This document shows positions 14,324 to 31,267 of a stretch of DNA of 64,000 nt, one piece after another. The DNA comes from Burkholderiales bacterium (GTDB taxonomy: Bacteria; Pseudomonadota; Gammaproteobacteria; Burkholderiales; Casimicrobiaceae). Below the pieces are notes generated by a model. It saw nothing but the letters and a program-made list of their open reading frames with translations, was not told where the DNA came from and did not search any database. The translations under genes and the position numbers were made by a program. Position 1 is the first letter of the stretch; every line of letters starts with the position of its first letter. The DNA is taken from assembly GCA_025354165.1 (NCBI GenBank), contig JANXNI010000032.1, positions 124,001 through 188,000 of the forward strand, given 5' to 3'.

Positions 14324-15898
14324 CTAAGTGCCCGCGTTGATTTCAACGCGGCGTGCTGCTTTGTTGTCTCCACCGCCTGTGATTTCGGCTGGCGGTTTCA
14401 TATTTATGCGATCTGATCCGATGCCCGCAGCCACGAGCGCGGCCCGAACGGCCAACGCACGTTCTTTGGCAAGCTCCAGATTGGTCGCTTGATTGCCCGT
14501 CTTGTCGGTGTAGCCGGTGATGTCGATCTTGGCGTCCGCTTTGCCTTTGAGGAAAGTAAGCGCTGCGTCGAGGGACTCTTTGGCGTCGCCCGGCATTTCT
14601 TTCTTGCCGGTTGCGAAGTAGATTTTGGCGGGCATTGCTCCAGAGGCGGTTGCCGACGCCGGGGCGGCCTCCGAAGGAGCAGCGGCTGTTGCCGGCGCGG
14701 CACCAGCAGGTAGTACGCCACCGTTACGGGCTTTGGCGAAATCAATCGGCTGCGCAAATTCGGCTGCCTTGTTAGACCAGCTTGAACGCGTGTAGGCCAT
14801 CACGCCCGCCAGATCTTTATCTGTCAAATGCTTAAACGACGCCATCGCGGTTCCCGCTTTGCCGTTAAGCAACAACGCGACTTGCCCGTCTTTCGGGCCA
14901 TTCACAACCTTCGAGCCATCAAGTGCCGGGAACTGGCCCGCGATGCCCTTGCCAGTTGGCTGGTGACAGCCCTGACAACCGCCCACACCTTCATAGACCG
15001 TTTTGCCGTGAGCAATCAGCTCGTCGCGGGTGTAAGTTTTGGTGTCGACAGCGACCGCGGTGTTGGCAGCTTTACCTACGCCATACTTTTCTTTCTGCGC
15101 CGCGAGCCAAACGTCGTAATCAGCCTGCGTTTTAACCTCGACAACCGTCGGCATGAAGCCATGTTCTTTGCCACAAAGCTCGGCGCAGTTACCACGATAA
15201 ATACCTGGGCGATCCGCACGGAACCAGGCGTCACGAATGAAGCCCGGAATCGCGTCCTGCTTGACGCCAAGCGCCTGAACCCACCATGAATGAATAACGT
15301 CGTTGGCCGTCAGCAGCAGGCGAACTTTTTTGCCAACCGGAACCACCAGCGGGTTATCGACTTCCAGCAGATAGTTTTCGCCCTTGGATTCCGAGTTTTT
15401 GATTTGCGCGAGCGGGGTCGACAATGTTGAAAGATAGCCAAAACCATCGTGAATGTAGTCGTAGCCCCATTTCCATTGATAACCAGTGACTTTAATGGTC
15501 ATCTCGGGCGCAGAGCTGTCGCGCATGTCAAGAATCGCCTTGGTCGCTGGGAATGCCATCGCCAGGAGGATGAAGAACGGAATGATGGTCCACAGTGCTT
15601 CGACCGTAGCGCTCTCGTGGAATTGGGCCGCTTTGTGCCCTTTGCTCTTACGGTGCGCGTAGAGCGAATAAAACATGACGCCAAACACGCCGACGAAGAT
15701 CACCACACAGATCCAGGTGATTAACGTGTGCAGATCAAACATCTGCTGAGCAACCGACGAGTTCGCCGGCTTCAAATTCATTCGCCAGTCGGCAAAAGCA
15801 GCCATCGGCAGCAACGCGGTCAGCGCCCCCAACCGACCCGCACCCGCGACTAACGACTTCAACGTTGGCGCGGCGTTGCGCACAGAAAGCTTTGACAT
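14324..15898 (-). CDS. coxB: Cytochrome c oxidase subunit II fused to cytochrome c and OmpA-like domains
   Basis: 524 residues from the ATG at 15898; a GTG nine codons upstream is possible. Order: signal segment (about 1-36), two membrane helices (about 57-80 and 98-120), the CuA cupredoxin domain with H203, C238, E240, C242, H246 and M249, a class I cytochrome c domain with CQGCH at 308-312 and likely axial M352, an Ala/Pro linker (about 396-423), and an OmpA_C-like domain (424-522) with GYTDKTGNQATN, LAKERALAV and ARRVEI. CuA takes electrons from the fused haem. The terminal domain would face the periplasm and keeps the Asp and Arg used by OmpA proteins to bind peptidoglycan (D465, R480). 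Confidence 0.95.
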   Translation of the reverse strand: MSKLSVRNAAPTLKSLVAGAGRLGALTALLPMAAFADWRMNLKPANSSVAQQMFDLHTLITWICVVIFVGVFGVMFYSLYAHRKSKGHKAAQFHESATVEALWTIIPFFILLAMAFPATKAILDMRDSSAPEMTIKVTGYQWKWGYDYIHDGFGYLSTLSTPLAQIKNSESKGENYLLEVDNPLVVPVGKKVRLLLTANDVIHSWWVQALGVKQDAIPGFIRDAWFRADRPGIYRGNCAELCGKEHGFMPTVVEVKTQADYDVWLAAQKEKYGVGKAANTAVAVDTKTYTRDELIAHGKTVYEGVGGCQGCHQPTGKGIAGQFPALDGSKVVNGPKDGQVALLLNGKAGTAMASFKHLTDKDLAGVMAYTRSSWSNKAAEFAQPIDFAKARNGGVLPAGAAPATAAAPSEAAPASATASGAMPAKIYFATGKKEMPGDAKESLDAALTFLKGKADAKIDITGYTDKTGNQATNLELAKERALAVRAALVAAGIGSDRINMKPPAEITGGGDNKAARRVEINAGT

Positions 15899-15954
15899 AT
15901 TCTTTTGCTCAATCCAGTTACGCACAACAACTTATCCCAATTCAATATCGACGA

Positions 15955-16487: not shown

Positions 16488-17417
16488 CTAGCGAAGGGAA
16501 ATTCGCGCTAGCGCGCACGAAGCGACCCGGCTAAAAAGCGAATCTGCGCGACTGGTAATCACGATTGGCACCCGCCCGCCTTGAACAACGCCCGCACACT
16601 CTCCCCCGCCTATGTAGACAAAGCTTTTGTAAAGAATATTGCCGGAATTGAGATCGGGAACCAACAGAATATCGGGATCACCCGCTACCGCAGAAACGAT
16701 GCCCTTCGTCGCAGCAGCTCGAACAGAAATGGCATTGTCGAATCCAAACGGCCCGCCCACGATTGCCGCGCCGAACCGACCTGTCAGGCCCCACTCAGTA
16801 AGCGTACGCGCGTCGAGCGTGGCGGGAATATTTGCGTTAACAGTTTCTACTGCGGCGAGGATCGCTATCTTCGGAACTGCGACGCCCATCTTTTGCATCA
16901 GTTCAATGGCGTGAGTCAGGCTCTCCGCTTTGGTCAACAAATCCGGCGCGATGTTTACTACCGCATCAGTCACTGCGAGCAATTTGTGATACCGAGGCAA
17001 ATCGAAGACAAATGTGTGCGTCAGTCGGCCCGATCCGCGCAGGCCAGAGTCGCGTGCCAAAACAGCTCCCAGCAATTCATCAGTATGCAGGCTGCCCTTC
17101 ATCAACAAAGCCACCGCCCCCGAAGCGGCGTCGGCAACCGCAATTGCCGCAGCCTCGCGCGCGGAATCTCCAGTGTCGATCCACCGATACTGCGTTGACG
17201 ACGCACCCGCTGCTCTCAACAGCCCCTGAGCACTGGAAGGACCGTAAAAAACGGGTTCGATGATGCCCAGCCGGGCCGCGACCACAGCCGCTTCAAAAAC
17301 CGTGGCGTCTCCTGGGTACACGATTGCCGTCGCCGTCGGCGGCACCTGACGCGCATCCGCGATTAACGCCGTCAGCCGCGGATGGGCGGCGCTAACCGCA
17401 GCTGCCTCAACTCCCAC
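16488..17417 (-). CDS. pta: Phosphate acetyltransferase (short PTA/PTB type)
   Basis: 309 residues, GTG start only 4 nt after the iclR stop. It has the single PTA_PTB domain and lacks the long N-terminal regions of E. coli Pta. Visible signatures are LLMKGSLHTDELL, the VAAVETVN-like strand, and VAGDPDILLVPDLNSGNILYK. It converts acetyl phosphate and CoA to acetyl-CoA. Next to xsc, whose product is acetyl phosphate, it gives the last step of sulfonate carbon use. A phosphate butyryltransferase specificity cannot be excluded by sequence alone. Confidence 0.88.
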   Translation of the reverse strand: MGVEAAAVSAAHPRLTALIADARQVPPTATAIVYPGDATVFEAAVVAARLGIIEPVFYGPSSAQGLLRAAGASSTQYRWIDTGDSAREAAAIAVADAASGAVALLMKGSLHTDELLGAVLARDSGLRGSGRLTHTFVFDLPRYHKLLAVTDAVVNIAPDLLTKAESLTHAIELMQKMGVAVPKIAILAAVETVNANIPATLDARTLTEWGLTGRFGAAIVGGPFGFDNAISVRAAATKGIVSAVAGDPDILLVPDLNSGNILYKSFVYIGGGECAGVVQGGRVPIVITSRADSLFSRVASCALARISLR

Positions 17418-17421
17418 GACG

Positions 17422-18210
17422 CTACCAGTCCAGCGTCTGGCTAATCTGCTCTGCGGCCTCGCGCAGCGTTGGCAAAAATTCGATGGCCTGTGAAACGCTC
17501 ATGCGCGAAACGGGGCCGTGCACTGCAACGGCGGCAACTACACGATCCTGATCATTGGTTACGGGAACGGCAAGACAACAGATCCCTGCCAAATACTCTT
17601 CGTTATCGACGGCATATCCGCTGCGGCGAATCGACGTGAACTCCAACTCCAATTGACGAAGCGTCGTCAACGAGTTTTTCGTGTGGGCAATCAGTGGCGC
17701 ATTGGTGAGCAGCCGGTCACGCATGCGCTTGGGTGAGTGCGCAAGAAAAAGCTTTCCGCTAGCGCTGGCATACAGTGGAACTTTGGAACCCGCATGCAGG
17801 TTAATGCGCAGCGGCCATGCCGACTCCACGCGGTCCAGATACATTACCAAGTGCCCGTTAGGAATCGTCAAATTGCAAGTTTCGCCGACCCGCTCCACCA
17901 ACTCTTCAAGAATGGCCCGGCGCGCCGAGCGATGGGGGGAGTGCAGCAGCACGTTTCCGGCCAGAATCGCCAGCCGCTCGCCAGGAACGTAGCGCTTCGC
18001 GTCTGGCTCCCGCAGCAGCATACCGGCCTCTTCCAGCGTAGTAAGGATACGAAACACCGTCGGCTTCGGCAAATGGACGGCAAGCATGATTTCGGTCAAA
18101 CTCACAGAGCGCTCACTATTGGCGACGAACTCCATGACGGCTAGCGAACGCAGCGCCGCCGATCCTGCTTCACGGCTGTCTCGGTGTGCATCATCGTGCT
18201 CGGCCAACAT
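17422..18210 (-). CDS. IclR family transcriptional regulator
   Basis: 262 residues. The winged helix-turn-helix is at about 17-75 (SLTEIMLAVHLPKPTVFRIL) and the IclR effector domain at about 90-255, with the usual INLHAGSKVPLYASASGKLFLA. The ATG at 18210 has an AGGAA site. It is divergent from xsc, and the shared 158-nt region has an inverted repeat at 18261-18295. It is most likely the local regulator of the sulfonate genes; the ligand is unknown. Confidence 0.93.
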   Translation of the reverse strand: MLAEHDDAHRDSREAGSAALRSLAVMEFVANSERSVSLTEIMLAVHLPKPTVFRILTTLEEAGMLLREPDAKRYVPGERLAILAGNVLLHSPHRSARRAILEELVERVGETCNLTIPNGHLVMYLDRVESAWPLRINLHAGSKVPLYASASGKLFLAHSPKRMRDRLLTNAPLIAHTKNSLTTLRQLELEFTSIRRSGYAVDNEEYLAGICCLAVPVTNDQDRVVAAVAVHGPVSRMSVSQAIEFLPTLREAAEQISQTLDW

Positions 18211-18260
18211 CTTATGTTCCTAAGTTAATCGCCTTCACATTATGCACAATTGTCATTATT

Positions 18261-18295
18261 CAGAAAAAATGAAACGCAAAGATTCATTTTTTGTG
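18261..18295. promoter_or_regulatory. Candidate IclR operator between iclR and xsc
   Basis: Arms CAGAAAAAATGAA and TTCATTTTTTGTG are 13 bp each with a single mismatch, separated by 9 nt. The element is centred in the divergent promoter region, about 75 nt before the xsc start. IclR proteins bind such AT-rich inverted repeats. Binding here is inference. Confidence 0.55.
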
Positions 18296-18368
18296 ACTTA
18301 CGCACGACACGAGTAGCAATGACTTGCACACTTGTTCCCATCCCAACGAACAAATAATGAGGCGCGCT

Positions 18369-20213
18369 ATGGTGACCCGTCCGAACAAGAAATCTGCCAC
18401 GGCAACAGCCGCGAAACCCGCCAAGATCAAAGTCGATCGCCGGGTAACGCGTGGCCCAACCCGAATGACGCCGTCCGAAGCGTTCGTTGAAACACTTGTC
18501 GCACAGGGCGTGACCGACGTTTTCGGCATCGTCGGCTCCGCGTACATGGACGCGCTCGACTTGTTCGAAACGGCGGGCATCCGCTTCATCTCGGTTGCAC
18601 ATGAGCAGGGCGCGGGCCATATGGCTGACGGCTACTCGCGCGTCTCGGGTCGCCACGGTGTTTGCATTGGTCAAAACGGCCCCGGCGTCACCAATTTCGT
18701 TACGCCCACCGCAGCCGCGTTCTGGGCCCACTCGCCGGTGGTAGTCATCACACCCGAGACGGGCACCATGACGTTGGGTCTCGGCGGATTTCAGGAAACC
18801 GATCAACTACCCATCTTTTCGAAGATCACTAAATATCAGGCCCACGTCAACAACAAAGCCCGAATGGCGGAACTGACAGCGCGCGCGTTTGATCGCGCTC
18901 ACATAGAACTGGGGCCGACCCAACTCAACATTCCGCGCGACTTGTTCTACGGCGAAGCCGACTTTGAAATATCCGCACCTATGACGATTGAGCGTGGTGC
19001 CGGTGGCGAGGCTGCGCTGGACGCGGCCGCCGAGATACTGGCAAGCGCAAAGTTTCCGGTGATTCTCGCGGGCGGCGGCGTCATTATGGCCAACGGCGGC
19101 GTCGAAGCCGTGAAGCTCGCGGAGTTGCTCGATGCCCCGGTATGCAACAGCTACCTGCATAACGACAGCTTTCCGGCGAGTCACCGTCTGTGGTGCGGGC
19201 CGCTCGGTTATCAAGGATCGAAGGCCGCGATGAAGCTGATCAGCAAGGCGGACGTCGTGCTGGCACTAGGCACAAGGCTTGGCCCGTTTGGTACTTTGCC
19301 GCAGCACGGCATCGATTACTGGCCGAAGAACGCGAAGATTATTCAAGTCGACGCCGATCCGAAAATGTTGGGGCTGGTGAAGAAAATCTCGGTCGGCATT
19401 TGCGGCGACGCCAAAGCAGCAGCCGCGGCGCTGGTTGCACGACTGAAAGGCAAGGCGTTGGCCTGTCACGGCAATCGTGACAGCCGTTTGGCGACCGTCG
19501 CTAAAGAGAAGAAGGCATGGGAAAAAGAGTTGGACGATTGGACGCACGAGACCGATCCATACTCGGTCGAAATCGCCAAAACCTCCAACTACATGCACCC
19601 GCGTCAAATGCTGCGAGAACTGGAAAAGGCGATGCCGAAGCACGCAATGGTCTCCACCGACATTGGCAATATCTGCTCAGTATCCAACAGTTATCTGCGT
19701 TTTGACGCGCCGCGCTCAATGTTTGCCGCGATGGCCTTCGGCAACTGTGGCTACGCCTTCCCGACGATCATAGGAGCCAAGCTCGCTGCGCCAGATCGTG
19801 CCGCTGTCGCCTATGTTGGTGATGGTGCATGGGGCATCAGCTTTAACGAAATTCAAACCTGTGTGCGTGAGAACATTCCGGTCACGGCGGTCGTCTTCAA
19901 CAACGGCCAATGGGGGGCGGAGAAAAAGAACCACGTCGATTTCTACAACCGTCGCTATCTCGGTGTCGCGCTCGACAATCAACCGCATTGGGCCAACGTT
20001 GCGCAAGCGATGGGTGCTGAGGGCTTGCGTATCGATCAACTGTCCGATGTTGGCCCTGCACTGGCCGACGCATGCGCGGCGCAGGAGCGCGGCAAGACGA
20101 CGATTCTCGAAGTAATGGTGACAAAAGAGCTGGGCGACCCGTTCCGTCGCGACGCTCTTGCGCTGCCAACGCGCTTTCTCAATAAGTACAAACACACCGA
20201 AATCAAGCGCTAA
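18369..20213 (+). CDS. xsc: Sulfoacetaldehyde acetyltransferase
   Basis: 614 residues from the ATG at 18369, which has a GAGG site at 6 nt; two earlier in-frame starts are weaker. A thiamine-diphosphate enzyme with three domains. The catalytic Glu sits in SVAHEQGAGHMADGYSRVSG, and the cofactor motif is GDGAWGISFNEIQ...NN. The Xsc-type region GVCIGQNGPGVTNFVTPTAA distinguishes it from acetolactate synthases. It cleaves sulfoacetaldehyde with phosphate to acetyl phosphate and sulfite in the cytoplasm. A Lys/Arg/Ala-rich stretch of about 32 residues precedes the usual Xsc start (MTPSEAFV). Confidence 0.93.
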   Translation: MVTRPNKKSATATAAKPAKIKVDRRVTRGPTRMTPSEAFVETLVAQGVTDVFGIVGSAYMDALDLFETAGIRFISVAHEQGAGHMADGYSRVSGRHGVCIGQNGPGVTNFVTPTAAAFWAHSPVVVITPETGTMTLGLGGFQETDQLPIFSKITKYQAHVNNKARMAELTARAFDRAHIELGPTQLNIPRDLFYGEADFEISAPMTIERGAGGEAALDAAAEILASAKFPVILAGGGVIMANGGVEAVKLAELLDAPVCNSYLHNDSFPASHRLWCGPLGYQGSKAAMKLISKADVVLALGTRLGPFGTLPQHGIDYWPKNAKIIQVDADPKMLGLVKKISVGICGDAKAAAAALVARLKGKALACHGNRDSRLATVAKEKKAWEKELDDWTHETDPYSVEIAKTSNYMHPRQMLRELEKAMPKHAMVSTDIGNICSVSNSYLRFDAPRSMFAAMAFGNCGYAFPTIIGAKLAAPDRAAVAYVGDGAWGISFNEIQTCVRENIPVTAVVFNNGQWGAEKKNHVDFYNRRYLGVALDNQPHWANVAQAMGAEGLRIDQLSDVGPALADACAAQERGKTTILEVMVTKELGDPFRRDALALPTRFLNKYKHTEIKR

Positions 20214-20234
20214 ATTCGCTACCATCGTGTAGCG

Positions 20235-20258
20235 CTGTACGTTGCCGTTAACGTACAG
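20235..20258 (+). other. Intergenic hairpin between xsc and the receptor gene
   Basis: Perfect 9-bp arms CTGTACGTT and AACGTACAG with a 6-nt loop, 22 nt after the xsc stop and 26 nt before the next start. No T-run follows, so full termination is unlikely. It may protect the xsc message or set the ratio between enzyme and receptor. Confidence 0.5.
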
Positions 20259-20284
20259 GTCACAGGTGTGCATAAGGAGGATTC

Positions 20285-21268
20285 ATGCGATCACTGTCCA
20301 GAATTTTCGTGCTCGGATTTTCCGCCGCGACGCTTCTCGTATCTACAGCAAGTCACGCGCAAGCGTGGCCAACAAAACCGGTTCGTCTGATCAATCCGTT
20401 TCCCGCAGGTGGTGGTACTGACACTTTCGCGCGGCCGCTTGCAGCTCAACTGTCAAAGCAAACTGGTCATCAATTCATCGTAGAGAACATCGGCGGTGCC
20501 GGTGGCACTGTGGGCGCCGCCCAAGCCGCGCGTGCTGCGCCGGATGGCTACACGTTCCTGATCGGCGCAGTTCATCACACCATTGCGCCGTCAATTTACC
20601 CCAAGCTTTCGTACGACATCGAAAAAGACTTCGTACCGGTGACGCTGTTGGCCATCATGCCATTCGTGGTGGCCGTGCAGCCAAACAAACTGCCACAGGT
20701 GAAGACCCTGAAAGATCTGGTCGACTACGCCAAAGCCAATCCGGGCAAGTTGAATTTCGGGTCGCCCGGCTCGGGCACATCGCAGCACCTCACGGGCGAG
20801 CTGTTTAAGCTATCCAATGGCATCGACATGGTGCATGTGCCCTACAAAGGCATGGGCCCCGCGATGCAGGACTTTCTCGGCGGCTCACTGGATGTGCTGA
20901 TCGATGGCATGAGTGCGACAGCGGCGCAGATTCGCTCTGGAAGGGCGCGTCCGCTCGGCTTAATGTCGGCAACTCGATCTCCACAGTACCCGGACATCCC
21001 CACGTTTGCCGAGCAAGGCTTTCCCAACAACGAAGTGTCGCAGTGGTACGCGCTTTGGGCGATCAAAGGAACGCCTCCCGACATCGTCGACAAGATGTAT
21101 CGTGAAGTCGTGAAAGCGCTGGAGGAGCCCAACATCAAGGCGAACTGGACGGCAGCAGCGGCCGATGCGGGCGGCATGCCGCCGGCCGAATTTGCAAAAT
21201 TTGCACACGCTGAAATGGAGCGTTGGGCCAAGGTGGCGAAAGCGTCCGGTGCGAAACTTGATAACTGA
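20285..21268 (+). CDS. Bug family (tripartite tricarboxylate transporter) solute-binding protein
   Basis: 327 residues with a strong AAGGAGG site. The signal peptide ends at about SHAQA. The Bug/TctC fold is shown by WPTKPVRLINPFPAGGGTD, ENIGGAGGTVG, NFGSPGSGTSQHL and VPYKGMGPAMQDFLGG. Such proteins capture small anions in the periplasm for a TctAB permease. No TctA or TctB gene is near, so it is an orphan receptor. Its position inside the xsc-sauS-sauT run suggests a sulfonate ligand such as sulfoacetate (inference). Confidence 0.92.
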   Translation: MRSLSRIFVLGFSAATLLVSTASHAQAWPTKPVRLINPFPAGGGTDTFARPLAAQLSKQTGHQFIVENIGGAGGTVGAAQAARAAPDGYTFLIGAVHHTIAPSIYPKLSYDIEKDFVPVTLLAIMPFVVAVQPNKLPQVKTLKDLVDYAKANPGKLNFGSPGSGTSQHLTGELFKLSNGIDMVHVPYKGMGPAMQDFLGGSLDVLIDGMSATAAQIRSGRARPLGLMSATRSPQYPDIPTFAEQGFPNNEVSQWYALWAIKGTPPDIVDKMYREVVKALEEPNIKANWTAAAADAGGMPPAEFAKFAHAEMERWAKVAKASGAKLDN

Positions 21269-21292
21269 GTTGATAGCAAAGCACGTTGATTG

Positions 21293-22693
21293 ATGGATGA
21301 AATTGAGTTAGTCGCGCAGCTCGTCGCGAAAGCACGTGTCGCGCAAGCGATAGCCGAACGTTATGATCAGACGCAGGTTGATCGGATTTGTGCTGCCGCG
21401 GCTTGGGCAATCATGGAGCCAGCGCGAAATCGCTCGCTGGCCGAGCTTGCAGTTAAAGATACGGGGCTCGGCAACGTTGTTGACAAGATTCAGAAGAACT
21501 ATCGAAAGACGTTAGGCCTGTTCGGTGATTTGCACGGTGCCCGGTCGGTAGGCGTGATATCAGAGGACGCTGAAGCGGGTATCACTGAAATTGCACGGCC
21601 CGCTGGCGTGGTCGGTGCGATCACGCCGTCAACCAATCCCGGCGCAACCCCGGCGAATATGATCATCAACGCAATGAAGGGGCGCAACGCCATCATCCTT
21701 GCACCTTCACCTAAAGGTTATTCGACGGCGGCGCTATTGCTGCGATACGTCCACACCGAGTTTGACCGCATCCGTGCGCCGCATGATCTGGTGCAACTGC
21801 TGCCCTCACCAGTGACCAAAGCATCCACCTACGAATTGCTGCGACAGGTTGATCTCGTCGTAGCAACAGGTTCGCAGGCAAATATTCACGCGGCTTACTC
21901 GAGCGGAACTCCAGCATTCGGTGTAGGCGCGGGCAACGTCGCCGTGATCGTTGATGCGAGCGCAGACGCCATGACAGCGGCGGAGCGAATCGTGCGCTCC
22001 AAAATTTTTGATAACGCGACCAGTTGCTCGAGCGAAAACAGCATGGTCGTCGTTGAGAGCATCTATCCAGCGATGATCGCTGCAATGGAGGCGCAAGGCT
22101 GCGTGTTGCTCAATGGCACCGAGAAAGCCCGGCTTCAGCAGATCATGTTTCCTGAGGGCAAACTCTCGCCACTAGTGACCGCCAAATCCGCCTCGGAAAT
22201 CGCCCGCCTAGCCGGGATAGATCGGGCCACAAACGCGCAAGTGCTGATGGTCAACGAGTCCGGCACGGGCGATAAATTTCCGTTCTCAGGCGAGAAACTC
22301 TCGCCAGTTCTTAGCGTATATCGGGCGCCGGATTTCGCGGCGGCATCTGGGATCGTTAGCGATATTTACGCTTATCAAGGTGCCGGTCATTCAATCGGTA
22401 TTCACGCATCGCCAGCCCGCGCTGACGAGCTTGCTCTTCAACTGGGGCTCACGCTGCCCGTCGCTCGTGTGATCGTCAATCAGGCGCATAGCATCGCGAC
22501 CGGTGGAAGCTTTGACAACGGCCTTCCTTTTTCCCTATCAATGGGCTGCGGTACCTGGGGCGGCAACAATTTCAGCGATAACCTGACCTACCGAAACTTC
22601 CTGAACATCACGCGAATCGCAAGACCCATCACGGAGCGCCTGCCAAACGAGGCGGAGTTGTTCGCGGACTACTTCGCTCACGTCGCAAAATGA
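21293..22693 (+). CDS. sauS: CoA-acylating aldehyde dehydrogenase, probable sulfoacetaldehyde dehydrogenase
   Basis: 466 residues from the ATG at 21293 (a TTG one codon earlier is also open). It belongs to the EutE/PduP/SauS-type aldehyde dehydrogenases: RPAGVVGAITPSTNP, GVGAGNVAVIVD, and the catalytic Cys at about 245 in DNATSCSSENS. In sulfoacetate catabolism SauS reduces sulfoacetyl-CoA to sulfoacetaldehyde. The direct link to xsc and to a CoA ligase favours that role over other acyl-CoA reductions. The stop overlaps the ligase start as ATGA. Confidence 0.82.
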   Translation: MDEIELVAQLVAKARVAQAIAERYDQTQVDRICAAAAWAIMEPARNRSLAELAVKDTGLGNVVDKIQKNYRKTLGLFGDLHGARSVGVISEDAEAGITEIARPAGVVGAITPSTNPGATPANMIINAMKGRNAIILAPSPKGYSTAALLLRYVHTEFDRIRAPHDLVQLLPSPVTKASTYELLRQVDLVVATGSQANIHAAYSSGTPAFGVGAGNVAVIVDASADAMTAAERIVRSKIFDNATSCSSENSMVVVESIYPAMIAAMEAQGCVLLNGTEKARLQQIMFPEGKLSPLVTAKSASEIARLAGIDRATNAQVLMVNESGTGDKFPFSGEKLSPVLSVYRAPDFAAASGIVSDIYAYQGAGHSIGIHASPARADELALQLGLTLPVARVIVNQAHSIATGGSFDNGLPFSLSMGCGTWGGNNFSDNLTYRNFLNITRIARPITERLPNEAELFADYFAHVAK

Positions 22694-24216
22694 CCGATGC
22701 GGCCACCTTGCGCGACGTGCTGCTTCTGCATGAAGCAGCGCAGCCGACAGCGGCGCTGTTGCTTTCTCCAGAGTCCGATCGAATATTGACCTACGGGCAA
22801 TTTGCGAAGGAGGCAAGGCAACTCTCTGCGCGACTCAATGCGCTCGGAATCCACGCTGGGGATCATGTCGGGTTTCTGCTGCACAACGGCTACCAGACGA
22901 CCACGATTTTTCTCGGCACGATGGCTGCGGGTTATGTCGTAACGCCGCTCAATCTGCTGTCGCAAGGCGCGGCGCTTGCCTATGTGCTTGAGCACAGCAA
23001 TGTTCGCGTTGTGTTTACGTCTGCGCACTACGAGCAGCAGTTGCGAGATGCAATCTCGCAACTTTCGCCACAACACCCTGACGGCATTCAGCTGGTGGTC
23101 ATTGAGTCGGATGCCGCAGAAGCTCATGCGGGGTTCGGTGAACGTGCGTTAGATGCCGCCATAAATGGATCAACGCCGGCGTTGCTTATGTACACGTCCG
23201 GCACCACAGGGAAGCCCAAAGGTGCGTTGCTAACGCACAGTAATTTATTGCACGCAGGACGTTCAGTATGTGACTGGCACAGCTTGACCGAGAATGACCG
23301 CGTGCTGTCCTCCTTACCGCTGTATCACATCAATGGTCAGTGCATCGCCACGGTTGCTCCGTTTGTGAGCGGTGGCAGCATCGTCGCGCCGCACAAGTTT
23401 TCTGCGCGCATGTGGTGGTCGTGGGTAGAGCGTTATCAGCCAACGTGGCTGAACATGGTGCCCACGATCATTGCCTACCTGCTCAATGACGCCGCCGCAA
23501 ACGCGGGCGATACGAGACAATGGCCGAATATTCGTTTCGCGCGCTCGGCCTCGGCACCGCTGCCACCGGAGCAGCATCGCGCGTTCGAAAAATTATTCGG
23601 TATCGGCGTGATCGAAGCAATGGGCATGACGGAATGCGCCTCTGTGGTGTTCTGTAATCCGCAGAATGCGAGTGACCGCAAATATGGAACGCCAGGGCTG
23701 CCCTGTGGTGTTGACACGCGCGTCGTTTCGACGGAAACCGGAGCGACGCTTGAAGACAACGTAACCGGAGAGCTACAACTGCGCGGCGACAATGTGATGC
23801 TCGGTTACTACAACGCACCAGACAAAACGGCGGAGGCGATGACCAATGACGGCTGGTTGCGTACCGGCGATCTCGGCTACCGCGACGCGGGTGGTTTCTA
23901 TTTCGTGACGGGGCGAATCAAGGAGCTCATCATCAAGGGTGGCGAAAACATCGCGCCACGCGAGATTGACGAAGCCTTGTTGTCGCATCCTGCCGTCCTG
24001 GAAGCCGCAGTAGTAGGCATTTCCGACGCCAACTACGGGCAGGATATCCTCGCGGCGATTGTGCTCAAACCGGGCGTAGCGTGCGACGAAAAAGCGCTAC
24101 GCGAGCACTGCCTGCGCGTACTCGGGCGCTACAAAACGCCAAAGACCTTTCGCTTTGTTGACGACTTGCCCAAAGGCCCATCAGGTAAAGTTCAAAGGTT
24201 AAAACTGCTTGACTAG
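22690..24216 (+). CDS. sauT: AMP-forming acyl-CoA ligase family, probable sulfoacetate-CoA ligase
   Basis: 508 residues, ATG overlapping the sauS stop. ANL-family adenylation enzyme: P-loop-like MYTSGTTGKPKGALLTHSN, the A5 region GMTECA, the hinge motif GYRDAGGFYFVTGRIKE and the catalytic Lys in KGPSGKVQR. The pathway role is activation of sulfoacetate to sulfoacetyl-CoA using ATP. Family sequence alone does not fix the substrate; the neighbours xsc and sauS do so by context. Confidence 0.8.
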   Translation: MTDAATLRDVLLLHEAAQPTAALLLSPESDRILTYGQFAKEARQLSARLNALGIHAGDHVGFLLHNGYQTTTIFLGTMAAGYVVTPLNLLSQGAALAYVLEHSNVRVVFTSAHYEQQLRDAISQLSPQHPDGIQLVVIESDAAEAHAGFGERALDAAINGSTPALLMYTSGTTGKPKGALLTHSNLLHAGRSVCDWHSLTENDRVLSSLPLYHINGQCIATVAPFVSGGSIVAPHKFSARMWWSWVERYQPTWLNMVPTIIAYLLNDAAANAGDTRQWPNIRFARSASAPLPPEQHRAFEKLFGIGVIEAMGMTECASVVFCNPQNASDRKYGTPGLPCGVDTRVVSTETGATLEDNVTGELQLRGDNVMLGYYNAPDKTAEAMTNDGWLRTGDLGYRDAGGFYFVTGRIKELIIKGGENIAPREIDEALLSHPAVLEAAVVGISDANYGQDILAAIVLKPGVACDEKALREHCLRVLGRYKTPKTFRFVDDLPKGPSGKVQRLKLLD

Positions 24217-24243: not shown

Positions 24244-25020
24244 ATGTGCATCGCCGTTTTCCAATGGAACCCAGACGTCGAATCTCCGCTCCTGCTTGCG
24301 GCAAACCGGGACGAACACTTTGCGCGCCCCACGCGGTCGATGCACTGGTGGCCCCAAGCGAAGGTTTTAGCGGGGCGCGACCTCAAAGCGGACGGCGCGT
24401 GGCTGGGTGTCACCCGACAGGGAAGCTTTGCGCTCATCACCAACGTCCGCAATCCTGCGTTGCGTAAGTCGGTGGCGCCGTCTCGCGGAGAGATCGTGCG
24501 TCGATATCTTGAAGGGACGCAATCGGCGAGCGAGTTTGTTGCCGCGCTTGCAGCGATTACCGATCACTACGAGGGCTTCAATCTGCTCTGCGGCTCGATC
24601 CGCGCAAAAGAGCGTGAATTGTGGTTTCTCAACTCGTCGGACGCTACACCACGATTGCTCAATGCGGGTCTCTATGCCCTATCAAACGCGTCACTAGACA
24701 CGCCGTGGCCCAAGATCACGCGCATCAAGGCGGGTTTCCGTCATGCGCTTGCGGAACATGACCTGACGGCACAAAACGAGCGTCTATTCCGTTTGTTAGG
24801 AAACACCACCCAAGTCGCTGATCGCGACCTACCGCAAACCGGCGTGCCGCTTGACTGGGAACGAAAGTTGAGTTCGATTTCAGTTCGGCGCGAGGGTTAC
24901 GGCACTCGCGCGTCAACGGTGATGCGCATAGGCAACGGGCAGGCCGATGTTACCGAACTAAATCACAACCAAGACTCGACCCCAAGCGAGCGTAACGACT
25001 TCGCATTCGAGCTTCAGTAA
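24244..25020 (+). CDS. NRDE family protein (TANGO2-like)
   Basis: 258 residues. The name motif NRDE occurs in LLAANRDEHFARPT, and the protein begins MCIA, as is usual for the family, where Cys2 may be the N-terminal nucleophile of an Ntn-hydrolase fold. GSFALITNVRN and the central YEGFNLL are also conserved. Bacterial function is not settled; animal TANGO2 has been linked to haem or lipid handling. It begins 27 nt after sauT and may share its transcript. It overlaps the convergent DUF350 gene by 7 nt. Confidence 0.88.
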   Translation: MCIAVFQWNPDVESPLLLAANRDEHFARPTRSMHWWPQAKVLAGRDLKADGAWLGVTRQGSFALITNVRNPALRKSVAPSRGEIVRRYLEGTQSASEFVAALAAITDHYEGFNLLCGSIRAKERELWFLNSSDATPRLLNAGLYALSNASLDTPWPKITRIKAGFRHALAEHDLTAQNERLFRLLGNTTQVADRDLPQTGVPLDWERKLSSISVRREGYGTRASTVMRIGNGQADVTELNHNQDSTPSERNDFAFELQ

Positions 25021-25427
25021 ACGAGAGCCGCCGCGTTGAGCACGCCGACGGAGATGGACGTAGCGGCCAGAAAAATCGCCTCGGCGATATTGCCTTTTTC
25101 AATTGCACCCGACAAACCCGGCATCAACATTCGTGCGAATACAAACACGATGAGTTGAACCACCGTGGCAAGCACTGCAAACAACACCAGATCCACCAAA
25201 TTCACGGCATTGGCGACTGAACTGGCCAGCGGCAGTGCAAAGCCCAACATCGCACCCGAGAGCGAAATCGCGGCTGCCGTATTACCCTCGCGGATCAGAT
25301 TGATTTCATCGTACGGCGTCACCTTCATGTAAATCACGGTGAACACGACGAACAGTAGCAGCGCAACGGCAAAGTAAATCAGGAAATCATCAAAGTAGCG
25401 GATCGATTCGTTGATGGAATAGCTCAT
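25014..25427 (-). CDS. DUF350 family membrane protein (YjfL-like)
   Basis: 137 residues with four predicted membrane helices in two repeated halves. The motif DEINLIREGNTAAAISLSGAMLGFALPLASS is the DUF350 signature (given here only in part: REGNTAAAISLSGAMLGFAL). DUF350 proteins are regularly encoded with glutathionylspermidine-synthase-like ligases. Here the gene lies 17 nt after the ligase stop and ends the operon. Confidence 0.92.
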   Translation of the reverse strand: MSYSINESIRYFDDFLIYFAVALLLFVVFTVIYMKVTPYDEINLIREGNTAAAISLSGAMLGFALPLASSVANAVNLVDLVLFAVLATVVQLIVFVFARMLMPGLSGAIEKGNIAEAIFLAATSISVGVLNAAALVY

Positions 25428-25444
25428 GGTGGTACCTCTTTGAA

Positions 25445-26572
25445 TTAATCAAAATAATGCGGCACAAACCGCGATGTATTCATTGTGATTTCGGTAGCGT
25501 CCTCGCGCAGGCCAATGCCAGCGGGCGAGTCGCCGACGATCCAGCTGCCTACCGTCACGTAGTTGCCCTCGAAGCTCGGGATCGGCGTGTACTGTTGATA
25601 GACATAACCCTCTTCGCCGTACGTGCCTTCGGCGCGAATCACTTCGCCACCCTTATAAATTTCGACGTTGGCACCTTCCCGCGAAAGCAGTGGCTTTTTC
25701 ACGTAATCACCTAGCACTTTGTGGCGCTGGAATGAGGCGGGCAGCAGTAGCGGATGATCGGGATACAACTCCCACAAAATCACCAGCAAGCCTTTATTCG
25801 CCAGCACCATCTTCCACGCCGGTTCAATCACGCGCATCGTCGTCTTGCGCAGGTTGTCACCAAACTCATCAGCGATCAGCCATTCCCACGGATAGAGCTT
25901 GAACAGCGTCTCGATACGCTCATTGTCAGTGTCAACAAAAGCCAAGTCGGCTTCGCTCCAGCCGATTTCCTCAACCGTGAGCCAGGGTGCCTGCAAGCCC
26001 GCCTGCATCGCCGTATCGCGCAAGTAGTCGAGGTTGCCGTCATCCTCTTCGCTGCCACCCGCGCAGGTGAAATGCACATGTTCATAACCATGCTCGGACT
26101 TGAGCCATTTCCATTGCTCAATCAATGCTTCATGCAGGCTGTTGAACTGATCAACACCGGGCTTCGTGTCCTCCACCCAATGCCACTGCGCCACACTCGC
26201 TTCCACCAATGAGGTCGGCGTGTCGGCGTTGAACTCCAGAAGTTTCGGTGGGCCGCTGCCGTCGTACGCCAGGTCAAAGCGCCCGAACAATGACGGATGG
26301 TCGTTGTCCCAGCTCTCGCGAATCATTGCCCATGCAGTTTCAGGGATCGCCAACTCCGCAAAGCGCTCTCTCTCAATGATGTGCTCAGCCGCAGCCATGC
26401 ACATGTCGTAGAGCTCTTTCGTCGCGTGCTCAAGATCATCAATTTCGCGGCGCGAGAAGTGATAGCAGATGCCCTCTTCCCAATACAGTCCGTCAATCGA
26501 ATGGAAGCTGAAGCCCGCGTCTTCGCAGCGCTTTTGCCAGTTGTCGCGCTTGGGCACATGTTCACGACGCAT
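25445..26572 (-). CDS. Glutathionylspermidine-synthase-like ATP-grasp ligase (YgiC/YjfC type)
   Basis: 375 residues, the size of stand-alone YgiC/YjfC proteins, without an amidase domain. Family motifs are LEFNADTPTSLVEA, KPLLSREGANVEIYK with ATP-grasp lysine and acidic residues, and the C-terminal GSWIVGDSPAGIGLRED followed by SRFVPHYF. These enzymes form an amide between a peptide and an amine. The actual substrate of YgiC-like members is not known. It lies 2 nt after the DUF1190 stop, so it is clearly in one operon with DUF1190 and DUF350. Confidence 0.93.
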   Translation of the reverse strand: MRREHVPKRDNWQKRCEDAGFSFHSIDGLYWEEGICYHFSRREIDDLEHATKELYDMCMAAAEHIIERERFAELAIPETAWAMIRESWDNDHPSLFGRFDLAYDGSGPPKLLEFNADTPTSLVEASVAQWHWVEDTKPGVDQFNSLHEALIEQWKWLKSEHGYEHVHFTCAGGSEEDDGNLDYLRDTAMQAGLQAPWLTVEEIGWSEADLAFVDTDNERIETLFKLYPWEWLIADEFGDNLRKTTMRVIEPAWKMVLANKGLLVILWELYPDHPLLLPASFQRHKVLGDYVKKPLLSREGANVEIYKGGEVIRAEGTYGEEGYVYQQYTPIPSFEGNYVTVGSWIVGDSPAGIGLREDATEITMNTSRFVPHYFD

Positions 26573-26574
26573 GT

Positions 26575-27102
26575 CTAGCCGCCCGACGAATGCGACGAAC
26601 TGCTGCCGCCGCCGTGGCGTGATGCTGACGCGCCAAAGCCACCGCGAGATACTGACGCCGACGAAATCGTGCCCGAGGAGCGTGAGCCTGGGCGTGCATC
26701 GGAGCTAAAGCCGGAGCTTCCGGAGCGGGAAGAATATCGCGGGCCATAAAAAATGCGCGAGCCGCCTACGCCGGTGTGATTCGTGGTGGCGGACGACGCC
26801 ACCTCCTCGCAGTCTCCCGGGCTGCCCCAATCAGCCTTGCACGCTTCCATGTTGGCGTAAACATCGCGGCTGGTGCCTTTATTGCTTTCAAGATTGCCAC
26901 AACCCGTCAAGCCGCCTAACGCAGCCGTTCCCATCAATACGAGGGGGAGATTCATGCTTCGCATGCGTTTCGGCTTTGCAGCAGAAGCTGCTAAGGCTCT
27001 CGACTTGGGCTCTCGTACTAAACGAGTTGGCGGAACCTGCGTCGGCGCGCTCGCTGTCTCACCGTGTGCCCCCTCAAGGCCCGTCACTCTGCAATCATCC
27101 AC
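26575..27102 (-). CDS. DUF1190 lipoprotein (YgiB/YjfM type)
   Basis: 175 residues from a GTG at 27102. I chose it because GAGGTGAT, a near-perfect match to the anti-Shine-Dalgarno, ends 3 nt before it; an ATG at 26964 has no such site. The N-terminal 49 residues are polar and basic, then a hydrophobic stretch ends in the lipobox LTGC (Cys68). The body is Ser/Gly-rich, and the C-terminal motif VSRGGFGASA is the YgiB signature. It heads the operon with the ATP-grasp ligase, a pairing also known in E. coli as ygiBC. Such a long signal n-region is unusual. Confidence 0.82.
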   Translation of the reverse strand: MDDCRVTGLEGAHGETASAPTQVPPTRLVREPKSRALAASAAKPKRMRSMNLPLVLMGTAALGGLTGCGNLESNKGTSRDVYANMEACKADWGSPGDCEEVASSATTNHTGVGGSRIFYGPRYSSRSGSSGFSSDARPGSRSSGTISSASVSRGGFGASASRHGGGSSSSHSSGG

Positions 27103-27142
27103 CGCATCACCTCGCCCTTCGAATAGGACTGAATTGACGATT

Positions 27143-27171
27143 GTTTTACGCGGGGCAGGCGTCTATGTCAA
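27143..27171 (-). promoter_or_regulatory. Candidate sigma-70 promoter for the DUF1190 operon
   Basis: On the minus strand TTGACA (27171-27166) is followed by a 17-nt spacer and TAAAAC (27148-27143). Transcription would start near 27136, giving a leader of about 35 nt to the GTG start at 27102, which agrees with that start choice. Confidence 0.5.
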
Positions 27172-27192
27172 CGCGAGGGGAGTCCTACGTCG

Positions 27193-27495
27193 TCAGTGAA
27201 CGGCAGCAGGCCGCAGGAAACGAATCAAAGTGCCGTCGCGAAGGCAAATTTCACCTTCGCCAGAGAGCCTTGCGCCCTCAAAATCGCGCTGGATCAGCAG
27301 CAACTCCTGATCCTCACGGGTGCCCTCGACCAATACATCATCAGGCCGCGTGAATTCGTCCGGCGCATGTAGATAGTCCGCTGTAAACACCTCGTCTCCG
27401 ACCTGAACAAAGGCAGCCTCGTTCATCGCCACCGTGAGGGTGTCGAACATCGGCGGCACAGTCGCGGTGGAAAGGCTGGTGGTCATTGAATGCAT
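27193..27495 (-). CDS. Conserved-looking small protein of unknown function
   Basis: 100 residues from an ATG at 27495 with GGAG 6 nt upstream; longer in-frame starts reach 27567. The C-terminal 85 residues form a compact, acidic, probably beta-rich domain (VGDEVFTADYLHAPDEFTRP, then RDGTLIRFLRP). No membrane helix or signal is visible. I do not recognise the family. It lies between the DUF1190 operon and xpaC, all on the same strand, so it may belong to the same stress or envelope locus. Confidence 0.6.
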   Translation of the reverse strand: MHSMTTSLSTATVPPMFDTLTVAMNEAAFVQVGDEVFTADYLHAPDEFTRPDDVLVEGTREDQELLLIQRDFEGARLSGEGEICLRDGTLIRFLRPAAVH

Positions 27496-27605
27496 CATGG
27501 TCTCCATAGTGGGGGCGGGACACAGGCGTTTCAAGCAATTAACGCGCCGAGAGCCCATTTGGTGCACTGAAATGACGAATTCGCAACAACTGGCTACTTA
27601 AGCGC

Positions 27606-28304
27606 TTACTTGAGCACTACGAGGCCGTCGCTACCTTCCGCTCCGTTGCGGCCAAACTTTTCCGACAAAAATTGCGAATTATCCAGAAACGCCTGTACGT
27701 CGTGTGCAGCCAACGCATCATTTAGCTGCGTCACTTTCTGCCCCAATTCGTCCACCGTTTGTGCGAGCGTGGTCTCCGCCGTCATGCCGTTGGCCAGCGC
27801 TTTGGTCGCGGCGAACTGCGCAGGAATTGACCAGAACGACTTCAGCGCATCGGGCAGGTAGCGCAGCGCGATATAGCGAGCGTGAAAGGTGTCCTCAATC
27901 GACAGCGTGACTTTGGAGCGCTCCCACTGCGCCAGCATCGCCTCGATGGCGTCGCAGAGATTGAGTAGCTTTGTCCCGGTCGCGGCAGATAACCGGCGAT
28001 CAGGATTGGTGTTCACCAAGCGGCGAATCGCAGCCAATGCTCTGCGCGTTGCTTCACGCGTGTCTTCGCTGTCGCCAAAGGTTAACTCTCCCCAGTCCGG
28101 CCCTGCCAAACGCGGCCACCCTAACCAAAGCCCCCCGCATAGGAAGCCAGCGCCGTACGCCAGCAGCGCAAGGCCTGACAGTCGCGGACTCACCCAACCT
28201 AATCCGACCAGCGTTAATACGGAAATCGCGAAAGCAAGGCCAAGCCAGTTCGCCGGAGAGAACAAAAATCGGGTGGCGGTTTCACTGAATGTCGATAGCC
28301 TCAT
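27606..28304 (-). CDS. XpaC-like protein
   Basis: 232 residues. Two N-terminal membrane helices (about 17-37 and 40-60) are followed by a long helical cytoplasmic domain. The pattern fits the 5-bromo-4-chloroindolyl phosphate hydrolysis protein XpaC family, which is often encoded next to telA (in Bacillus, xpaC-yaaN). Here telA lies about 3 kb away in the divergent arm of the locus. The gene starts 3 nt after the vWA protein stop. The enzymatic role suggested by the family name is not established. Confidence 0.72.
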   Translation of the reverse strand: MRLSTFSETATRFLFSPANWLGLAFAISVLTLVGLGWVSPRLSGLALLAYGAGFLCGGLWLGWPRLAGPDWGELTFGDSEDTREATRRALAAIRRLVNTNPDRRLSAATGTKLLNLCDAIEAMLAQWERSKVTLSIEDTFHARYIALRYLPDALKSFWSIPAQFAATKALANGMTAETTLAQTVDELGQKVTQLNDALAAHDVQAFLDNSQFLSEKFGRNGAEGSDGLVVLK

Positions 28305-28307
28305 AGT

Positions 28308-29951
28308 CTATTGATAGGCTCGAATTTCTTTGAATACGGCGGGCAATGGCGTCTTGCGAGCGTCAAAGCTGCGACCGCCTGTTAGCTTGGAGATTTCCTT
28401 TAGCGCCACGTCGCTCGCTTCACCGAAAGCGACGGTGAACACCGGAATGGCCCTCACGTCTTCAGGCAGAGCGGCGTAGGCCTCCTTAAATTGCGTAAGG
28501 TTTCGGCCCTGTGTGTTTTCACCATCGGTGAACGCAATCACTGAATATTGGTAGTTGCGATCTTTTGCCTGGGCCGCGCTCATCTGAATCAAGGCATCAA
28601 GAATCGCGTCATACAACGCAGTGCCGCCTTTCATGGTCAAGCCACTTGCGTATTCGCGAACTTGCTCTAGTACCTCGGTTTTTTTCTGCGCATTCGCAGC
28701 CGTGGTAGCGGGCGGCAACTCAAAGTAAGTCGGGGTGCCGGTTCGATCAGAAAACGGCAGCATCCAGATGCGTTCGCGGCTGGACAGCCGGGCCAGTCGA
28801 CCGGTCAAAGAAACATCCGCCCCTGCGACACTATGCAACGCGCTGATCAAGTCCGACCGCCGCGTGCCGCCATTCATGCTGCCACTTACGTCGAGCACGA
28901 AAGTGGACGCAATCGGTTTGCGAAACTCGTTAAGGTACGCGTCGATCAGGCCATCGGCCAAACCACGATCCGGAGAGAAGGGCAGTTCGATCAAAGTAGC
29001 GGTCGGGAACGTAACCGCTGAAGCCGCGTTGGCGTTGACCGGACGGCGCAGCGTGGTGCGCGCAAGCCACGTTTGCGCCTCGTCGCCTTTAAGATAATCC
29101 ACAACCTTTTGGTACTCAGTGCGCTTAGCATCCGAGAGCAACATGAACGGGTAATCCGCTGTCGCAATCCCTTCGCGCGGATAGAAAAGTTTCAGCGGCT
29201 CCTTCAATTTTCCCGACTGATTCATCGACATCAACCAGCTCTCATAATTGATGAAAGCGTTGACGTAAATGCCCTGTTGCTCGATGAATTTCTCTGCAAG
29301 GTAGGTTGAGTTGTCCCCCACCAGTTTGTAGCCACGCAGAAAATCCGCCACAGCTTTGCGATCAATATCAGCAGCGGTCAGCGCTTCCGCTTTTTGCGTG
29401 GACGCAGCAACGACGCCCACCAGCGCCATGTAGCCCTGATTGGAAGTCGCGGGGTTCGACAGCGCGTATTTGAGTTTGCCTGACTTCGCCGCCTCGGTCA
29501 CCGTCTTCCATGTCACTTTACTAGCGTCGGCCCAAGCGGGCCCGAGACGCGCGACATCAGACTCGCTCACGCCCACCACAATCGGCGAGAGCATGATCTT
29601 TTCCTGTAATTTCACGCGCACCTGTCCTTGCGGGTCGGACAGCAAATATTTGGCGTTGGCGAACCATGCGGCGTCGGCCGTGGTCTTGCCGGTCAACACT
29701 TGCTCGGTGCTTTCCATCGTGCCGCCGAAGGTGAACTTGAGCGCTACACCGGTAGCCTTTTTGACCATTTCCTCTAGCGGTTGCGCATCCCGCAAATCGC
29801 TGGTCGCCAATACCGATAACGTCGCTTGAGTTGAGATTGGCGCAATATCAGCGACGGCTACTTTCGGGGCTGGAGGCTTGGAATCTTTGCCACAACCACC
29901 CAACAACAAAGCGACCGCAAACAGCGGCGCGTACACAAACTTTAGTTTCAT
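28308..29951 (-). CDS. Lipoprotein fusing a solute-binding domain to a von Willebrand factor A domain
   Basis: 547 residues. The lipobox LLGGC places Cys20 as the lipidated residue. A type II periplasmic binding domain spans about 40-335 (SVLATSDLRDAQPLEEM, INYESWLMSMNQ). A vWA domain follows at about 348-545 with a complete MIDAS: D354, S356, S358 in FVLDVSGSMN, T444 in GGTALYDAIL and D476 in AFTDGENTQG. The protein is probably anchored to a membrane facing the periplasm. The ATG overlaps the upstream gene stop by 4 nt. It could sense a ligand and pass the state on by metal-dependent protein binding. Confidence 0.88.
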   Translation of the reverse strand: MKLKFVYAPLFAVALLLGGCGKDSKPPAPKVAVADIAPISTQATLSVLATSDLRDAQPLEEMVKKATGVALKFTFGGTMESTEQVLTGKTTADAAWFANAKYLLSDPQGQVRVKLQEKIMLSPIVVGVSESDVARLGPAWADASKVTWKTVTEAAKSGKLKYALSNPATSNQGYMALVGVVAASTQKAEALTAADIDRKAVADFLRGYKLVGDNSTYLAEKFIEQQGIYVNAFINYESWLMSMNQSGKLKEPLKLFYPREGIATADYPFMLLSDAKRTEYQKVVDYLKGDEAQTWLARTTLRRPVNANAASAVTFPTATLIELPFSPDRGLADGLIDAYLNEFRKPIASTFVLDVSGSMNGGTRRSDLISALHSVAGADVSLTGRLARLSSRERIWMLPFSDRTGTPTYFELPPATTAANAQKKTEVLEQVREYASGLTMKGGTALYDAILDALIQMSAAQAKDRNYQYSVIAFTDGENTQGRNLTQFKEAYAALPEDVRAIPVFTVAFGEASDVALKEISKLTGGRSFDARKTPLPAVFKEIRAYQ

Positions 29952-31096: not shown

Positions 31097-31267
31097 TCTT
31101 GTGAGGCGAGTATTTGCCTGAAGATAACAACGGATTATGTCCCCAATATGCGTCACGCCGTCACCCCGTGGAAACCCCGGTTTCGACGTTGAGAAACCGA
31201 CCGTCGTCGCATCCTTCAGCGCATAATTTGCGTGATACCGAAACCGATTTCATGACCGGGAGACCCC

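Follow-up and report, generated by a model that had tools for sequence, protein, structure and literature searches.

A lone Bug receptor in a predicted sulfoacetate operon of a Casimicrobiaceae genome, and its candidate membrane partner

How could sulfoacetate enter a cell whose predicted sulfoacetate genes include a receptor gene of the Bug family but no transporter genes beside it? This question is raised by a locus in the genome of a Burkholderiales bacterium of the family Casimicrobiaceae. The window, which means the whole 64,000-nucleotide stretch analysed here, is contig C72:124001-188000 of a 4.7-Mb draft genome (95% complete). A first-pass annotation had placed pta, iclR, xsc, a Bug receptor, sauS and sauT together at 16488-24216, and six open reading frames, placed in the named families by their Pfam and NCBIfam matches, bear this out. 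The explanation that we favour, and regard as likely, is a self-contained sulfoacetate operon with a local IclR regulator, in which the lone Bug uses a distant tctB-tctA pair. The Bug would capture periplasmic sulfoacetate and pass it to the tctB-tctA pair on contig C66, which would also serve many of the 48 further Bugs that the genome encodes. In the cytoplasm, SauT would convert sulfoacetate to sulfoacetyl-CoA (ATP to AMP), SauS would reduce sulfoacetyl-CoA to sulfoacetaldehyde, Xsc would use phosphate to turn sulfoacetaldehyde into sulfite and acetyl phosphate, and sulfite would probably be oxidized by a Sox system or exported.

Sulfoacetate degradation, already proposed in the first-pass annotation, is well supported at the level of sequence. 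Xsc (18324-20213, plus strand; true start probably the ATG at 18357 or 18369), a predicted sulfoacetaldehyde acetyltransferase with the Pfam domains of a thiamine pyrophosphate (TPP) enzyme, passed the NCBIfam equivalog model TIGR03457 with 953 bits against a cut-off of 676, and from its family name we take it to act on sulfoacetaldehyde. SauS (21290-22693, plus strand; the ATG at 21293 is a likelier start than 21290), a predicted CoA-acylating sulfoacetaldehyde dehydrogenase (Pfam Aldedh), passed NCBIfam model NF047625 with 720 bits against 600. It is 66% identical to SauS of Cupriavidus numazuensis (locus L088) and separate in the SauS tree from nine SauS-like proteins (33-38% identity), and Cys246 with its surroundings was invariant in 10 aligned rows. 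SauT (22690-24216, plus strand), a predicted AMP-forming sulfoacetate-CoA ligase (Pfam AMP-binding), overlaps sauS by 4 bases (sauS end 22693, sauT start 22690) and is 54% identical to SauT of C. numazuensis, and the other ligases of its own genome are at most 33% identical to it (matches of at least 340 residues). The SauT tree of 53 rows was built from 40 sau-linked ligases picked from 82, the window's own and 12 genome ligases, and it set the 41 sau-linked ligases apart from the 12 on one branch with an SH-aLRT support of 100; long branches meet in this tree, and the position of single genome ligases is unsure. Phylogeny of the 21293 and 22690 proteins thus grouped both with sau relatives and not with non-sulfonate enzymes. 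These SauS and SauT relations, together with Xsc in the same operon, make sulfoacetate the most likely substrate. The last enzyme, Pta (16488-17417, minus strand), belongs to the phosphate acetyl/butyryl-transferase family (PF01515, 98 bits) and is expected to convert acetyl phosphate to acetyl-CoA; its acyl specificity is only putative, because it passed PRK08190 (335 bits, cut-off 282) and stayed below the cut-off of the phosphate acetyltransferase model PRK11890 (324 bits, cut-off 413).

A second kind of SauS-like dehydrogenase was met in other genera of the family (L056-L063, e.g., L058:4711-12266). It is 36-38% identical to SauS, reached 473 bits in L058 (below the cut-off of 600) and adjoins an acetolactate-synthase-like TPP enzyme with 27-30% identity to Xsc; L058 also has a TRAP receptor and a PcaR-type regulator. 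These genes possibly encode an uncharacterised pathway with an acyl-CoA step and a TPP step.

The receptor gene itself (20285-21268, plus strand) gave 232 bits with PF03401 (Pfam TctC), its N-terminus resembles a Sec signal peptide as judged by eye, and among solved structures its closest matches are Bug receptors such as 2dvz. From its place in the operon we predict that the Bug binds sulfoacetate. It lies 21 or 24 bases before sauS, depending on the sauS start. Within the genus set, which comprised 17 genomes with the own one included and metagenome assemblies among them, SauS was above the cut-off in 13, and a Bug gene lay directly upstream of SauS in 13 of these 13, with Xsc upstream of the Bug (contig ends cut Xsc in L039 and L041 and SauT in L039), so the locus is more than a chance arrangement. 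Of the 12 other genus loci, 9 have pta adjoining iclR (L051 gave no match, and L039 and L041 are cut at the contig edge), and iclR is 86-97% identical in the 10 other genus loci showing it. Elsewhere in the family, eight genomes had SauS above the cut-off: five with a Bug there, one with TctA in the locus and two with neither; in one of these two only 82 bases of contig precede SauS, and in the other Xsc lies 83 bases before it. The order Xsc-Bug-SauS-SauT was found in three family genomes outside the genus (L043, L045 and L053).

A wider comparison used 80 named loci, the best 80 of 571 confirmed and thus those nearest to the window SauS and not a random sample. Bug directly before SauS with no TctA in the fetched DNA was found in 43 of them, TctA in 22 and neither in 15. 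"No TctA" here means none in the fetched DNA, which is less than 1.2 kb upstream of SauS in L075, L091, L114 and L130, and the "neither" label also covers L037 (Bug beside SauT), L121 (receptor truncated at a contig end), L133 (several Bugs) and contigs ending near SauS. L065-L068 match genus contigs in length and L139 matches L035; they were dropped from the trees and the operator count and kept in the 80 and in the 48 named loci whose SauS is flanked by 8 kb or more on either side, where Xsc was within the fetched DNA in 22. Eight of the 15 "neither" loci were checked for a transporter-like neighbour, and all eight had a gene of the major facilitator superfamily (MFS), after SauT as in sauRSTU in L088, L126 and L143, and before SauS in L071, L074, L080, L093 and L111. 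The position before SauS therefore looks like a transport slot, as an MFS gene occupies it in five loci. Along the SauT tree, switches of transporter type are frequent, with at least 8 changes of the lone-Bug label outside the genus and 9 of TctA. The locus had been called re-organised at first; the layout is real, but with a lone Bug in 43 of the best 80 loci it is no local oddity. Several layouts recur among these loci; that of the window is one of them and keeps the whole pathway together.

The classical sauRSTU genes of Cupriavidus necator H16 have the same order as the row of L088, in which a divergent IclR gene is followed by SauS, SauT and an MFS gene. With L088 as a proxy, the window locus resembles this system in SauS, SauT and a divergent IclR (42% identical), and differs in having no SauU, a lone Bug before SauS, xsc and pta in the locus and an IclR gene that faces xsc. 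The enzymes and the IclR control are of known kinds, and the lone-Bug transporter arrangement is a variant. Excerpts of a study on sponge symbionts (PMC12625764) name SauST and the MFS transporter SauU for sulfoacetate and describe sauST with a full tripartite tricarboxylate transporter (TTT, SauXYZ-like); as far as these excerpts go, a TTT-family receptor is linked to sauST there as here, but there the TTT genes are in the cluster, whereas the window has the receptor alone. Receptors linked to TctA are only ~24-32% identical to lone sau Bugs (listed pairs of the loci compared here). Another TTT system, SlcHFG, serves a sulfonate as well, namely sulfolactate, but excerpts of a 2018 review (PMC5812351) describe it as a complete three-gene system. 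The closest precedent for a separated receptor comes from Comamonas sp. E6, where, according to excerpts of two papers (PMC8556258, PMC13040137), TphC is encoded in the tph operon and tpiBA elsewhere. As in our locus, the receptor gene lies in a catabolic operon and the membrane pair elsewhere in the genome; unlike in our locus, the substrate in those excerpts is aromatic and the pathway uses an oxygenase, where the window has a sulfonate pathway. The literature searched, which did not include the 2010 and 2023 sau papers, gave no description of a sau locus with a lone Bug.

So which membrane proteins could take over from the receptor? The lack of SauU noted at first extends from the locus to the draft genome. 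No SauU-type MFS match was found in the locus or within the window, and the best match in the draft genome to an 8-row MFS alignment was partial, with 55 bits. The claim that the Bug stands without TctA and TctB holds for the locus, but a partner is possible, because the genome has four TctA and at least one receptor-less tctB-tctA pair. No TctA was found in the window, no tctA or tctB was met beside the receptor gene, and the TctA matches of the genome lie only on contigs C66, C83, C56 and C1; 49 Bug matches (of 50) were above the cut-off. TctC adjoins TctA on C83 and C56, and the C66 and C1 units showed no TctC in the fetched flank of ~1.5 kb. The C66 pair lies at ~11.4-13.5 kb of its contig with no receptor gene beside it, so that this genome shows the layout of the TphC/TpiBA kind: a catabolic operon that includes a receptor gene, and elsewhere a tctBA pair that lacks one. 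TctA of the C66 type occurs in 16 of the 17 genus genomes with 88-95% identity, the exception being G008 (79% complete). The genome G005, a single contig (99% complete), combines the sau locus with 47 Bug matches and a single TctA, of the C66 type, and G012, G013 and G014 (98, 91 and 90% complete) have the sau locus and one TctA each, again of the C66 type. By elimination from these single-TctA genomes, we infer that the lone sau Bug should use the receptor-less pair. Beyond the genus, 15 further genomes with a lone sau Bug all have some TctA (30 loci fetched, which are not all of their TctA). The C66 type was seen in 14 of the 15, with a best copy 70-77% identical, and in 12 of these 14 at least one copy has a fetched flank free of TctC, while G071 has TctC on both sides and G072 is cut by the contig edge; in G074 only another TctA type was seen. 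Receptor-less tctB-tctA pairs recur in Polynucleobacter and Variovorax, and each of the four named Polynucleobacter strains has two TctA, of which only one adjoins a TctC, and 18-26 Bug matches.

In the genus copies of the C66-type unit with upstream DNA at hand, the order is PpiC-like gene, tctB, tctA, and the fetched flanks contained no TctC; for the own copy, Pfam assigned the PpiC domain. This prolyl isomerase gene of the PpiC type before the receptor-less pair (L001:4-2952, contig C66), with similar genes in genus loci having upstream DNA, might encode a protein that helps Bug folding.

Control by IclR had been proposed too, and a divergent iclR (17422-18210, minus strand; PF01614 and PF09339) is indeed present opposite xsc, but this is the usual arrangement, as its identity to the divergent regulator of C. 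numazuensis indicates. In the iclR/xsc intergenic region at 18265-18291, we predict an operator with the imperfect palindrome AAAAATGAAAC-N5-GATTCATTTTT, whose core recurs, with one or two bases changed, in the 11 aligned genus loci (window included). No second site was found in the own genome at up to 2 mismatches, and one at 3 mismatches lies on contig C6; 0.10 matches would be expected in the window at 3 mismatches. The form TGAAAC-N5-GTTTCA (up to 3 mismatches) was found upstream of 50 of 88 IclR genes in the fetched loci versus ~6% of random stretches of the same loci, where related loci are not independent and some of the 88 genes are not sau-linked. A sigma-70 promoter scan of the region gave 0 matches versus 3.8 expected in shuffles and is uninformative either way.

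As to the sulfite released by Xsc, no TauE or Oxidored_molyb match was found inside the window, as the first-pass annotation had stated for an exporter or oxidase. Both kinds of match are present in other parts of the genome. The contig of the window also carries, some 53-58 kb upstream, soxC (TIGR04555, 612 bits against a cut-off of 420), an adjacent cytochrome c gene, soxY and soxA, and three TauE-family proteins are encoded elsewhere in the genome. Sulfite could be handled by this Sox cluster or by the TauE-family proteins.

Several points weigh against the sulfoacetate operon with a distant TctBA. On the enzyme side, SauT passed no dedicated NCBIfam model, the proteins of solved structure closest to it are oxalate- and malonate-CoA ligases, and its predicted substrate rests on neighbours and homology. 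A main substrate other than sulfoacetate, either a different sulfonate or a dicarboxylate with sulfoacetate as a side substrate, would fit the relation to the oxalate and malonate enzymes. We consider this very improbable, as Xsc in the same operon and SauS pass their own cut-offs and SauT groups with sau-linked ligases. On the transport side, the C66-type TctBA has no strict tie to sulfoacetate, since the four genus genomes in which SauS does not reach the cut-off have it too; G005 has a Bug gene on the other strand ~1.2 kb beyond its TctA; and elimination works only in genomes with one TctA, of which three of the four are drafts, and the own genome has three other TctA. In addition, the palindrome was not seen near TctBA or sox in the own-genome scan, and control therefore looks local. 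That IclR also controls TctBA or sox was considered and rejected, because the own genome has no other palindrome at up to 2 mismatches.

The four TctA of the own genome would also allow the Bug to partner a receptor-adjoined TctA (C83 or C56), the C1 type or a membrane unit outside the TTT family, and excerpts of a paper (PMC5994714) describe TTT receptor genes of Rhodoplanes that adjoin ABC and TRAP genes. We find this unlikely in view of G005, which is one contig, and of G012, G013 and G014, since all of them combine the same locus and Bug with a single TctA of the C66 type. Somewhat less credible still is a Bug that acts as a sensor or scavenging buffer, with sulfoacetate entering otherwise. 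The lack of tctA and tctB in the locus would agree with it, and a signalling role of TTT receptors is discussed in excerpts of two papers (PMC5994714, PMC11452294), but no sensor kinase was recognised among the scanned window proteins (part of the window's set), the local regulator is of the IclR type, relatives carry an MFS gene or TctA in the slot or locus, and a cell relying on another entry route would have to do so with no SauU in its draft genome.

Returning to the lone Bug as receptor for a shared TctBA, we compared the genes of family or near relatives (L043, L044, L045, L053, L035 and L115) with those of the window and of 13 far loci (6 for Xsc). Xsc (4 of the 4 having it) and SauT (5 of 5) of the relatives were nearer to the window than to any far locus, and their SauS was about even between the two. 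The Bug was reversed in 6 of 6, with 41-47% identity to the window and an average of 53-59% to Variovorax, Polynucleobacter and others. Another Bug of the own genome (L145) is as near to the window Bug (45% identity) as the family Bugs are (40-46%). A Bug tree of 141 rows, in which rows L002_own and L199_own are one gene, placed the sau-linked Bugs in two groups, with 43 rows in the group of the relatives and 13 in that of the genus. A single sulfoacetate receptor family comprising all sau-linked Bugs was tried as an explanation and set aside, because the tree gives two groups, yet a single clade was not rejected by the approximately unbiased (AU) test (p 0.341 for 76 rows and 0.152 for 40); none of 200 bootstrap trees of the 76-row set kept the sau Bugs together, and the bootstrap had not settled. 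These comparisons are suggestive of an exchange of the genus Bug for another paralogue, and fast divergence of one gene is a possible alternative. We therefore put forward only tentatively, at rather less than an even chance, a natural receptor exchange in which the enzymes stayed and the Bug was replaced by a non-orthologous paralogue within one family, where either receptor would work since one receptor-less TctBA accepts many Bugs.

Downstream of sauT, a TANGO2-family gene (24244-25020, plus strand; PF05742, 219 bits) starts 27 bases past sauT in the same direction and may be in the same transcript; its place in the system is uncertain. Nine of the 12 other genus loci also have this gene after SauT (~1 kb away in L047; absent in L050 and L054; L039 cut), and no such link was found among the scanned loci outside the genus. 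A role as pathway gene was rejected because the link is genus-only in the loci scanned; it is likely a passenger, and a link through CoA esters may be chance. On the other side of the locus, the window encodes at 14324-15925 a cytochrome c oxidase subunit II that carries a cytochrome c domain and, at its C-terminus, an OmpA domain, and that is kept in several neighbouring genus loci. A minus-strand run at 25014-31156 encodes a DUF350 protein, a glutathionylspermidine-synthase-like protein and a VWA-domain protein, and is partly kept beside the locus in several genus members.

The lone Bug of this locus bears on an open question, namely why some bacteria have dozens of Bug receptors and few TctA. 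Excerpts of the 2018 review (PMC5812351) state that there is no evidence yet for several receptors sharing one membrane pair. Because the pathway suggests a ligand for the Bug, this long-standing question of lone receptors becomes testable, and clean test cases would be the one-contig genome with one TctA and the small Polynucleobacter genomes with one receptor-less TctBA. The arrangement predicts an entry route for sulfoacetate in Burkholderiales in which a lone Bug replaces SauU in the sau locus. If the tentative receptor exchange with a shared TctBA is true, the genus would channel its set of Bugs (in G005, 47 matches against one TctA) through a single membrane pair, and such a shared pair would explain why Bug genes outnumber TctA.

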